Below are positions 10,502 through 49,818 of a stretch of 64,000 nucleotides of DNA, piece after piece; within the stretch, counting starts at the first letter, position 1, and every line of letters begins with the position of its first letter. Made by a program: the position numbers and the translations under genes. The stretch comes from Deroplatys truncata (Eukaryota; Arthropoda; Insecta; Mantodea; Mantidae). The notes under the pieces were generated by a model that made no database searches, was not told where the DNA came from, and saw only the letters and a program-made list of their open reading frames with translations. The stretch spans positions 96,923,795 through 96,987,794 of the forward strand of contig CM060977.1 of NCBI GenBank assembly GCA_030765065.1, given 5' to 3'.

Positions 10502-11925
10502 ATAAGGCGAAACTTTTGGTTGTATTAAATACAATGCCGTTTGTGAAAACTGCAACACTAAGAGAGAATTTACCGAATAACTCCAAACTTGATGGAAGTG
10601 TAAAACAGTGTGCAAGAAATAAGTTATTAGGTATGCAGAGAGATGGAGTACTCGTAGGCTAAGCGGAGCCCTCTCGTGTCGGTCCGAAAAGGTCAGTGTT
10701 GCGTCCAGTGTAGCCAGTGCAGAGCTGTCAAACAAGTTTGAAGCAATAAAGCGAGCGACAGTACGCCTCGTCGACGTCAAAGGGAGCCATATCGGCATGT
10801 GATTGAGTTCGAACGGGACAGAATGATCGGTATCCAGGAAGCGGGTTTGTCATACCGTGGCATTTCAGCTCGTACAGGGCATGCTGCTACGACAGTGATG
10901 CGTGTGTAGAAGCAGTGGATAGATGAAGGTCGTACGCAGCGAAGAGCAGGTACTGGACCACGGAACATGACCACACTGCGGGATGACGTAATCTTGTCTG
11001 CATGGCCATAACGGACCGTACAGCTTCATCCACAGTGTTGGCTCGACGCTGGAGCACTGAAACAGGTGCGAACTTGTGTGCATCAACGGTTCGTCGCCGT
11101 CTTCTGCAGGTTGGACTGGTCGCATGCATGCTATTACGTCGGCTTCCATTTTAGAGAAACCACAAGCTCCTCGGACTGCAATGGACACGTGAACACCGTC
11201 ACGGGTGCTGAGTGACAAAATGTACATTTTTCGGAGGGGTCCCGCTTCAAAGCGTCCTTCAGTGATGGCCGCATACGTGTCCGGCGGTACCTGGAGGGCT
11301 GTATTGTTGAGCGGCATAGCGGACAAACACCGGGTGCGATGGTTTGGGGCGCCATTGGTTAAACAACTGATCTCGCCTCCTTCGACTTGAAGGCACTTTG
11401 AACAGAAACCAGTATCTAATGGTGGTTATAGAGCCTGAGGTATTCCCCCTGCTTCAGGCATCTCCACAGGCCACATTTCAACAAAACAATGCCCAGACAC
11501 ATATTACAAGGAATGTACAAGCCTTCTTCGAAGAGTGACGGGTACCACTGCTTCCCTGGCCTACTTGTTCGCCTGACATATCACCCATCGAACATGTCTG
11601 GGTTATGGTTGGTCGGCACCTGGTGCGTCATGGTCCTCCAGTAACTAGTGTCACATACTTGTGGGCTCGAATACAAACTGTGTGGAGAGCAATCCCTCAG
11701 GAACTTATTGAGAACCTTTTTGATTCGATGGCACGGCGTATAGCAGCTCTAATTGCAGCGCAAGGAGGCCACACCAAATACTGAATATTAGGGCTCAAAG
11801 GTCATGTTTATCTTTGTTACTTGTCATGTACCTAACCTGTGGTATTGAATTCATGCGTTTCCTTCTTGATGTTGCAATTTTCACAAATAGCTGTGTATCT
11901 AATCCGAGGTTTATTTTGGCGACTG
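10502..11925 (+). mobile_element. Tc1-like DNA transposon, decayed
   Basis: Inverted ends of at least 60 bp enclose a transposase remnant. Left: GGCGAAACTTTTGGTTG with GTTTGTGAAAACTGCAAC. Right, on the minus strand: CGCCAAAATAAACC with ATTTGTGAAAATTGCAAC. The outermost right bases read CAGTCGCC on the minus strand, as in Tc1 ends. The TA target repeat is unclear. It lies just past the end of an R850 copy. Confidence 0.85.
10763..11784 (+). pseudogene. Tc1-family transposase pseudogene
   Basis: The enzyme would cut and join transposon ends in the nucleus through a DD34E triad. The N-terminal helix-turn-helix region reads RHVIEFERDRMIGIQEAGL then SYRGISARTGHAATTVMRV, followed by an RRAGTGPRN-type linker. 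C-terminal family signatures follow: QTPGAMVWGAIG near 11330, SPDISPIEHVW near 11580-11610, and an end GGHTKY with a stop at 11782. The family's start codon position reads ACG (10763). There is an in-frame TAG after MRV near 10907, further stops, several frameshifts, and loss of sequence around the first catalytic Asp (FSDES is replaced by FSEGS). It cannot encode an active enzyme. Antisense frames here (10865-11326 and others) are shadows. Confidence 0.9.
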
Positions 11926-15235: not shown

Positions 15236-15965
15236 AAGACAGATAAGTTATCTTTATTGCTTTAAAATTATTGAAGTTATTTCACATGTATTTAGTACAT
15301 ATTTAAGATACAGTAGGGTGACAAAATAAACAGAGAAAGAAAACAAAACAAAAAGGAACAATAAAAAGGGAAATAGAGATAAATTACCTTTATCTAGCTG
15401 AACAAATTTGACCTAGCTTCGCGCACTTTAGCCAAAAAATTGGCCAAGTTCTGCCTGTTCCTCTGGTCAGCCAGTAGATCCCAACATGCCAATCTCTTTC
15501 TTGGGGGACTTAAGAATTTTTCTTTAAGTTTAATCGTTCGCTGGTTCTTCCACTTTGAACATTGCACCAAAATATGTACCCAGTCTTCATCCAAATCACA
15601 GAATGGGCAGATTCTCCTCCTTGAATCGTCATTCATTTTCTGTGCCCTCCAGCCCCCCAGTCTAAACCATGCCAGTCCTGATCTTTCCTTTCTTCCTAAA
15701 TTAAGTATATATGCCTCTTTATCCCAGTTCAATTTTATTTCATTTGATAGACTTAGAGAAGGTTTAAATTTACAATCCGATTCTATTTCCTGTTGGTTGA
15801 TGTCTCTTAGTCTTCTTTTAACACCTTTCCATATGTTTTTGTCATTTGTTTCACCTCTTAGCCATACTGGTCCCATTCCTATTCTCCTCAAACCCCTTTC
15901 CAAATCAGCTGCCCAAAACTTAGGAGACAGGCTTTCTCGCTGATATTTATAACATTCGGATCATA
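15236..15965 (-). mobile_element. 5'-truncated LINE, 3' end
   Basis: The end of a LINE ORF is followed on the minus strand by about 160 bp of 3' UTR with a GCAATAAAG polyadenylation signal near 15262. There is no upstream reverse transcriptase, so this is the usual truncation of incomplete reverse transcription. A second copy of the same LINE lies at 55.88-56.70 kb. Confidence 0.75.
15394..15957 (-). pseudogene. LINE ORF2 C-terminal region with zinc finger
   Basis: The frame is open for about 185 codons and ends at a stop at 15394. It contains LERGLRRIGMGPVWLRG, then SGLAWFRLGGWRAQK, then a CPFC-x8-H-x4-C finger (CPFCDLDEDWVHILVQC). C-terminal Cys/His fingers of this spacing are common after the reverse transcriptase of insect LINEs, where they are thought to bind nucleic acid. 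The sister copy shows RICPICEEEESWVHVL at the same place. The open frame of this fragment suggests a fairly recent insertion. The clade is not decided. The plus-strand frame 15440-15943 is antisense shadow. Confidence 0.8.
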
Positions 15966-48142: not shown

Positions 48143-48522
48143 ATCTATAGTGACTGTCACCCCCAGAAGGAAGGGGTGAAATGGATGAACCATAGGAGGC
48201 TACAGGCCTCAACAGCTCGAGGCTTGAAGTCCCGTCCCATTGCCTAGAGAGGGTGATGCGCGACCCGTCGATCAAGCAGCTGTTCACGGGGAGTACTATT
48301 TACTTTGAACAAACATTTGTCTGACACGCCTAGAATCACACTTAATAGATGAGAATGAAACGGAATGAAAGAAAGGAAATCGTAGTAAATGAGAAACCAC
48401 ACTAGTATTCGCCTACCGACCAGGGTAGGTTACAAAAAAAGAAACCCAAAGTCAGAGTGAAATGTCGACGGGAATTGAACCCGAATGCGAGCTTCGCACG
48501 TTACCGCGATTTGATTTTTGCT
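48143..48522 (-). repeat. tRNA-headed SINE, type C
   Basis: Minus strand: GCGGTAACGTGCGAAGCTCG head, GGGTTCAATTCCC B-box, a TTTGTAACCTACCCTGGTCGG core, GTAGGCGAATACTAGTG, and a body matching the copies at 0.36 and 29.07 kb. Confidence 0.75.
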
Positions 48523-48717
48523 TACTTTTTAATCACGAAATAGGTGTGTCCCTTGATAAATACATGCGTATACGGTTATAATGTTGGCACAGCAGGTAGC
48601 GTAGCGATCTCCATCGGTCACTCTCTTCAAGCTAACAATAAGTACTATGGTGAGTCTCACAGAACATTTAAACAAGTGCAAGATTGTTTCATTAGATTTT
48701 GTAACAATCCTGATAGT

Positions 48718-49305
48718 TGGAAAGGTAGAATCAGATGACTGAAAAATTCAATGTCATAGCCGGGATTTGAACCACGGATCTCCCGGTCTCCGTCCGGTTG
48801 CTCTAACCACAGAGCTACCATGGCAACATGCCGACACGACATTAAATTCTCCAGCTGATTCGCATTTTTCCCGGTAAACCACAAGGAGATCTCAAATTGT
48901 ATTGAGATGTCATACCCCAATGGCGACTTACAAACATTGTAAGTAATTAAGTCCTGGGCTTTATAGTTGAAACCACTATTAGGTAAATTAATGGAATTAA
49001 TTGTTCTTTCACACAAGCCGTGTGTTGGACAAGGTTGGAAAGGTAGAATCAGATGACTGAAAAATTCAATGCCATAGCCGGGATTTGAACCACGGATCTC
49101 CCGGTCTCCGTCCGGTTGCTCTAACCACTGAGCTACCATGGCAACAAACCGACACGACATTAAATTCTCCAGCTGATTCGCATGTCGTGTCGGACCGGGA
49201 GATCCGTGGTTCAAATCCCGGCTATGGCATTGAATTTTTCAGTTATCTGATTCTACCTTTCCAACCTTGTCCAACACACGGCTTGTGTGAAAGAACAATT
49301 AATTC
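48718..49305 (-). mobile_element. compound tRNA-like retroelement, 588 bp
   Basis: Two ~150-bp direct copies (48718-48865 and 49035-49183, minus strand) each hold a tRNA-like block with a good acceptor pairing (GCCATGG with CTATGGC) and a B-box GGTTCAAATCC, and a tail GATTCTACCTTTCCA. A third, partial copy lies inverted at 49194-49306 and lacks the A-box half; it pairs with 48993-49105 over 113 bp with about one mismatch. The whole is flanked by a perfect 13-bp repeat CAATCCTGATAGT (48705-48717 and 49306-49318), so it appears to have inserted as one unit by LINE-type retrotransposition. No poly-A tail. The 185-codon frame through it (48657-49214) is an artefact of the repeated blocks. Confidence 0.8.
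48755..48829 (-). repeat. tRNA-like block (not a functional tRNA)
   Basis: GGTAGCTCTGTGGTTAGAGC supplies a D-arm and A-box, and GTGGTTCAAATCCCGG a T-arm-like B-box. The 7-bp acceptor stem is intact but the T-stem is poorly paired. A second copy lies at 49075-49148. They probably serve as an internal RNA polymerase III promoter. Confidence 0.7.
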
Positions 49306-49349
49306 CAATCCTGATAGTGATTGTAGTATCCTCATTTGGACAGCTTTCA

Positions 49350-49818
49350 GTTTTTACTTTCTCTACTACGTATAGTAAGTAGGGGAAGTATTGTATTCCA
49401 CCCAAAAATTCGATACCGAGATTTCACCGGAAATACATGTTCTAAAGCCCAATGAACCCAAAACAGCGTTTTTAAAAAAAAAGTCTGTGTTTATGAGTCC
49501 ATGTGTGTGTGTGTGTGTATGTGTGTGTGTGTGTACCTTAGCTCAAAACTAAATACGGCATGAATACCAACTAGGTGCTTAAATCCAGCATCTTCCAAAG
49601 ATGCGAAATGAAGATGTCCAAGAAAATCCCCCTTCATAAAGTATCCTTTACTTAGAACGCTTTTACGGAATTCATTATTTTCTAAAAAATGGTTATGACG
49701 ATCTTGATTAAAATACAGCATGCAAAAATACTTACATACAATTAAAATGTATATCTTAAATTCTGTATAATTTTGTATAAGTGATAAACATCAAGCGATA
49801 GACGATAACGTACTACAC
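49350..49818 (+). repeat. R850 repeat, left half
   Basis: TTTTTACTTTCTCTACTACG and AAAATTCGATACCGAG at the left end, on to ACGTACTACACAAAAA where the opposite-strand copy begins. A (GT)n tract lies at 49503-49533 at the family's usual GTGTGTCTGTG position. Confidence 0.9.

Follow-up and report, generated by a model that had tools for sequence, protein, structure and literature searches.

How does a block of tRNA-like units, some direct and one inverted, come to be inserted as a single piece in the genome of a mantis? We consider such a block from Deroplatys truncata, at 48705-49318 of a 64,000-nucleotide stretch of DNA (the window). Our answer, with a probability of about 0.75, is that it is a non-autonomous retroelement that would have been moved by a Penelope-like element (PLE), with one small RNA, probably circular, as the template. 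We infer the helper PLE and the RNA circle from signatures of mechanism in the inserted sequences. The block belongs to a repeat family that is abundant and young. This family works like PLE insertion, and it is not an autonomous PLE, a retrozyme as defined by its ribozyme, or a standard short interspersed nuclear element (SINE).

Outer ends and target sites of the repeat family

We searched the genome from which the window comes (4.29 Gb). The family search gave 330 matches from the best 39 of 3,799 candidates scored, and a 46-base stretch of the repeat unit was found at 11,307 sites with at most 2 mismatches. Among the matches listed, we compared 38 independent insertions, including the one in the window (L025 was dropped as a duplicate of L024). 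The repeat unit, U, is a non-coding sequence of 318 bp with 44% GC, made up of a tRNA-like sequence and another 245 bp; we number it U1-318 as the reverse complement of window 48825-49142. The insertions are head-to-tail multimers of U, and most of them are two multimers joined head-to-head, with the second one inverted. In the largest that we saw, L010, the arms measure 2,360 and 3,010 bp (~7.4 and ~9.5 units), and there are 17 tRNA-like sequences, each scoring 53.5 bits. We also took the first 100 exact matches on contig C1, which were not selected by structure. These formed 67 clusters, of which 47 were single-strand, and all of the mixed-strand clusters (20/20) face outward.

The left and right flanks form a target duplication of 10–15 bp at 30 of the 38 loci, versus 6 of 1,406 mismatched left/right pairings. 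The original prediction allowed that such flanks might belong to a longer and older duplication, or that the layout might be unique to this site; instead, the flanks match as true pairs, and similar layouts are found elsewhere in the genome between different target duplications.

The outer ends of the arms lie at two positions within the unit, U100-107 (short) and U148-153 (long), which are ~43 nt apart. At 24 of the 30 loci with a duplication, our script found one end of each kind, and if the kinds were random, the chance of 24/24 would be 6e-8. A single self-primed complementary DNA (cDNA) predicts mirror-image ends of the same kind, and none of the duplication-bearing loci (0/30) has two ends of the same kind. 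We rejected self-priming chiefly because the outer ends differ. The inner ends of the arms are secondary evidence: they are more than 30 nt apart in 25 of the 29 two-ended loci scored, and the exceptions (30 nt or less) are L034, L043, L045, and the window (24 nt). (This tally leaves out L015, L023, and L044, and the window's coordinates were set by eye.) The original prediction suggested template switching during reverse transcription. The ends point instead to two cDNAs that would have begun at different fixed starts and met head-to-head.

The cut sites of both strands read WW[GT]^NTT (60 cut sites from 30 loci). Compared to the composition of the flanks, there is an excess of T at +2 (50/60 cut sites, p = 1.6e-16) and at +3 (48/60, p = 1.4e-14), and C is absent from -1 (0/60, p = 4.7e-6). 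From such duplications we infer overhanging 3' ends on both strands, either of which could prime synthesis.

Eight of the 38 loci lack a duplication of at least 10 bp. Three of these (L013, L016, and L041) nevertheless pair a short with a long end. Four (L021, L024, L027, and L039) seem to be single-ended, and in L037 the ends are at U47 and U107. Incidental older copies were excluded from the 30, but we examined some of them by eye. L048 and an older second copy in L009 have one end of each kind, with duplications of 14 and 13 bp.

Several observations do not fit the pairing of one short end with one long end, or weaken the case for it. Among the 30 loci, L023 is an exception to the script, as it has one end of each kind by eye only. 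In L019, L034, and L038, the partner of the long end is at U93, U96, and U71, respectively, and L020 and L022 are single-ended with a target duplication. In L044, which is one of the 24, the second arm is merely ~5 nt. Two of the incidental copies (L059 and an old one in L081) seem to have two short ends, with no duplication visible. Also, because the loci were chosen by their similarity to the window's element, the sample may favor its layout.

In L038, the arm at the left end (1273) begins at U71, adjacent to the tRNA-like sequence's 3' end, and the target duplication is 14 bp. This single case is a hint that an end may occasionally be produced by tRNA 3' processing.

Could the family be a tRNA-derived SINE that is mobilized by a long interspersed nuclear element (LINE), with the inverted arm arising by twin priming? 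Like such SINEs, U is short, non-coding, and present in high copy number, and its tRNA-like sequence has a B box (at U52, by script) as well as an A-box-like TAGCTCAGTGG at U8, which we found by eye after the pattern script missed the A box. Target duplications of 10–15 bp would fit as well, and twin priming does yield inversions. But the breakpoints of twin priming vary, whereas both outer ends of these insertions are at fixed positions internal to the unit. The shared cut motif on both strands, the long multi-lap tandems, and the head-to-head arms also differ from SINEs, as does the TTTTT at U79-83, which precedes the two start sites. The junctions examined showed no 3' end that is A-rich or made of simple repeats; a LINE-derived end was not searched for. 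We consider a LINE-mobilized SINE to be improbable. The block had been described as a dimeric SINE with an odd third unit, but it is one member of a variable two-arm series.

The inverted arms and tandem arrays might also suggest a DNA foldback element, of the type of miniature inverted-repeat transposable elements, or the reinsertion of extrachromosomal DNA circles. Against this, the inner ends vary, the length of the duplication varies from 10 to 15, and single-ended copies exist. Also, because the outer ends are ~43 nt apart in the unit, the termini do not match as inverted repeats. These DNA-based explanations seem scarcely credible to us.

Within the window, this is the only insertion of the family, and its parts are as follows:

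48705..48717, no strand: left copy of the 13-bp target site duplication
48718..49183, sense on the minus strand: first cDNA arm, ~1.47 tandem 318-bp units
48752..48824, minus strand: tRNA-like sequence (U1-73) of the outer unit; Rfam tRNA, 43.1 bits
48825..49142, minus strand: sole complete 318-bp unit, used as U1-318
49070..49142, minus strand: tRNA-like sequence (U1-73) of the inner unit; Rfam tRNA, 53.5 bits; ARAGORN Ser(GGA)
49182..49307, plus strand: second cDNA arm, inverted, U302-313 fused to U37-151 (fusion by eye)
49306..49318, no strand: right copy of the 13-bp target site duplication

The 13-bp flanking repeat, CAATCCTGATAGT, is exact at 48705-48717 and 49306-49318, and the perfect duplication that had been noted is a genuine target duplication. 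The inverted arms had been called almost identical, and they are (48992-49106 versus 49193-49307, 115 nt at 99% identity). The two direct units of ~150 bp stand as copies: 48716-48865 and 49034-49183 are 97% alike over 150 nt, at an offset of 318. But the supposed spacer between them belongs to the 318-bp unit, which makes the direct portion a single tandem of ~1.47 units. The half-deleted third unit is indeed a partial inverted unit, and it lacks ~41 nt where U302-313 is fused to U37 (by eye). The outer end of the first arm, or its first copied base, is at U~107. The outer end of the second arm is at U~149-151, and its last bases overlap the target duplication. Overall, the insertion is as predicted: a compound tRNA-like element that was recently retro-inserted, lacks an A-tail, and has a target duplication on its flanks. 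Serine tRNAs have a long variable arm, and the sequence that ARAGORN called as Ser(GGA) does not have one, so it is best termed tRNA-like.

Comparison with Penelope-like elements

The U family shares many features with PLEs of the Penelope/Poseidon clade: a tandem with an inverted partial copy, a target duplication, arms that are joined head-to-head, two end positions 30–45 nt apart, and cutting of both strands in AT-rich DNA with a TT motif. The purified PLE protein from the anole (PAc, from Anolis) cuts and extends both strands in vitro, prefers ATT, and starts at two adjacent internal sites in the RNA, which bound the genomic tail; how a PLE insertion is completed was left as an unresolved question (PMC11167929). 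In rotifers (Adineta), PMC3846280 describes PLEs with a target duplication whose pseudo-long terminal repeats (pLTRs) are both direct and inverted; one inverted pLTR carries a tail of 31 bp.

PLEs are also found in the mantis genome. A search for GIY-YIG gave 149 matches from the best 150 of 13,893 candidates scored. Two resident families, PLE-A and PLE-B, have short and long ends. Four PLE foldback loci have both ends visible (L047/L052, L049/L079, L069, and L078), and by eye, each has one short and one long end. The tail is ~44 nt in PLE-B and ~43 nt in U.

We propose that a PLE protein, with a GIY-YIG endonuclease and a reverse transcriptase, would be supplied in trans and would cut both strands of the target. 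The two 3' ends would then prime cDNAs at separate internal sites of one small RNA, which would be a 318-nt circle that includes the tRNA-like sequence, and a cDNA could lap the 318-nt unit many times. Finally, the two cDNAs would be joined end to end, head-to-head at variable inner positions, and the overhangs would be filled.

Unlike PLEs, the U family has no open reading frame (ORF) for a reverse transcriptase or an endonuclease, and its 318-bp unit carries a tRNA-like sequence. Also, the start-site sequence of U is unlike those of PLE-A and PLE-B, and we found no hammerhead in U. Protein pieces of PLE-A and PLE-B had no match to the window at E = 1e-3. When the ends of PLE-A were compared to U, they scored 15 and 14, which is below the shuffle means of ~18.

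A few findings weaken the case for a PLE as the helper. Neither blastn nor pattern searches found a PLE that shares the start site of U, in a PLE census that is incomplete and from which few hits were read. As no start-site sequence is shared, the link to PLEs is one of mechanism and not of homology. An AC-rich hairpin between the start sites of U resembles the start site of PLEs by eye only, and the minimum-energy fold of the U tail does not contain this hairpin (z = -1.87, with 9/200 shuffles as stable).

A pattern search for a partner gave 52 hits, through which we found another set of sites (236 at up to 3 mismatches) that is more diverged. A further partner pattern gave 77 hits, none of which were read. 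L081 (G000:C7:89389600-89392600) is an older, diverged relative with a start-site hairpin, CTACACACGGCTNGTGTGAAAGAACA, and, by eye, a degenerate tRNA-like sequence. We considered sites of the L081 type as the autonomous partner, but L081, the one locus read, has this degenerate tRNA-like sequence and so looks like a relative.

Among the matches listed in the open-licence PMC literature, with preprints not covered, we found no tRNA-bearing repeat that is moved by PLEs. Nor is one described in the available parts of PMC7229834, PMC7761336, PMC6431247, PMC12910113, and PMC8490949. The family offers thousands of short sites, and many of these are sharply bounded two-ended insertions. They reveal where each strand is cut, the two points at which copying would start, and the number of laps.

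The RNA template

The variants within each insertion bear on what was copied. Pairs of units from opposite arms share an insertion-specific variant in 154/235 informative cases, versus 200 shuffles with a mean of 12.5/515 and a maximum of 25. Where at least 3 units cover a site, 32 variants were fixed, 69 were singletons, and just 4 were intermediate (one each in L013 and L036, and two in L023). For instance, 288G>A is in 17/17 units of L010, 230A>T is in 21/21 covered units of five loci, and L036, L040, and L046 have a set of variants at 110, 111, and 149. Because insertion-specific variants are common to both arms, it appears that each insertion copied one monomer sequence repeatedly and that both cDNAs did so. 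Sharing of this kind is evidence for a common RNA sequence as the template of the two cDNAs. A less favorable result is that for variants in at least two loci, 34 cases were fixed and 18 were partial, nearly all of the latter in one unit. Recurrent mutation could be the source of the partial variants.

The simplest explanation is that the template was probably a circular RNA of 318 nt, and copying from a single monomer would be indirect support for such a circle. The main rival is a linear multimer: the same PLE machinery would copy a long transcript of a young, homogeneous tandem array. Young arrays are nearly uniform, and arrays can reach ~9.5 units, so their read-through transcripts would look like one monomer copied repeatedly. 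For the anole PLE, a linear multimer was also proposed as the template (PMC11167929). On the other hand, older arrays have the 69 unit-specific singletons, yet intermediate variants are few. Also, TTTTT follows every tRNA-like sequence, which makes a multimer transcribed by RNA polymerase III (Pol III) unlikely. On balance, we find the linear array doubtful.

A Pol III transcript should end at U79-83, before the start sites, so read-through or another promoter must produce the template. The tRNA-like sequence probably serves in transcription or RNA processing, but this is speculative.

A circular template would also be plausible by analogy to the non-LTR retrozymes of metazoans. As described in PMC7229834 and PMC7761336, these are non-coding tandem monomers of ~300 bp that form multi-unit insertions, and U is within their range of size (150–450 bp) and of GC content (below 45%). 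PMC7761336 reports no motif in animal retrozymes from which the helper could be deduced. In contrast, the head-to-head arms and fixed start sites of U point to a PLE. U also differs from retrozymes by its tRNA-like sequence and by the lack of a recognized hammerhead. Rfam gave no hammerhead match in 48600-49400 at E ≤ 10, nor at the gathering score across the window, and the exact CUGANGA core is absent from either strand of the consensus unit. Although a hammerhead motif is a feature of PLE pLTRs, none was found in the PLE pieces examined, and a genome-wide search with RF00163 matched nowhere, including in the controls. Because the PLE pieces and the controls were also silent, these negative results are weak evidence. 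As no hammerhead was found, the family is retrozyme-like without the hallmark of retrozymes, a type I hammerhead ribozyme in every monomer.

Our tentative proposal is that a 318-nt RNA with the tRNA-like sequence and no ribozyme might form a circle, perhaps closed by tRNA-processing enzymes, and that it might be bound by a PLE dimer, with two starts and several laps. If so, this would point to PLEs as the means by which retrozyme-like tandem repeats move in animals, and the presence of the tail at only one end would be explained.

Other features of the window and the genome

Adjoining the insertion, at 49330-49480, is another abundant repeat, which contains TATTCCACCCAAAAATTCGATACCGAGATTT and matches 25 of the 74 loci L009-L082 (E ≤ 1e-4). 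On the other side, at 48460-48515 on the minus strand, we noticed by eye a further tRNA-like stretch with a B-box-like GGTTCAATTCC; it was not reported by ARAGORN or Rfam. An ORF of 169 amino acids at 15394-15903 (minus strand) gives the impression of the C-terminal part of a non-LTR retrotransposon, for which no search was made.

A search of the genome for COX1 gave 99 matches, many of them broken or clustered on contig C16, which suggests that the genome contains many nuclear mitochondrial insertions. The best COX1 locus, L082, is a nuclear copy or misplaced mitochondrial DNA. It has the order I-Q-M-nad2-W-C-Y-cox1-L-(cox2)-K-D, with cox2 inferred from its position, which we take to be the ancestral insect order.
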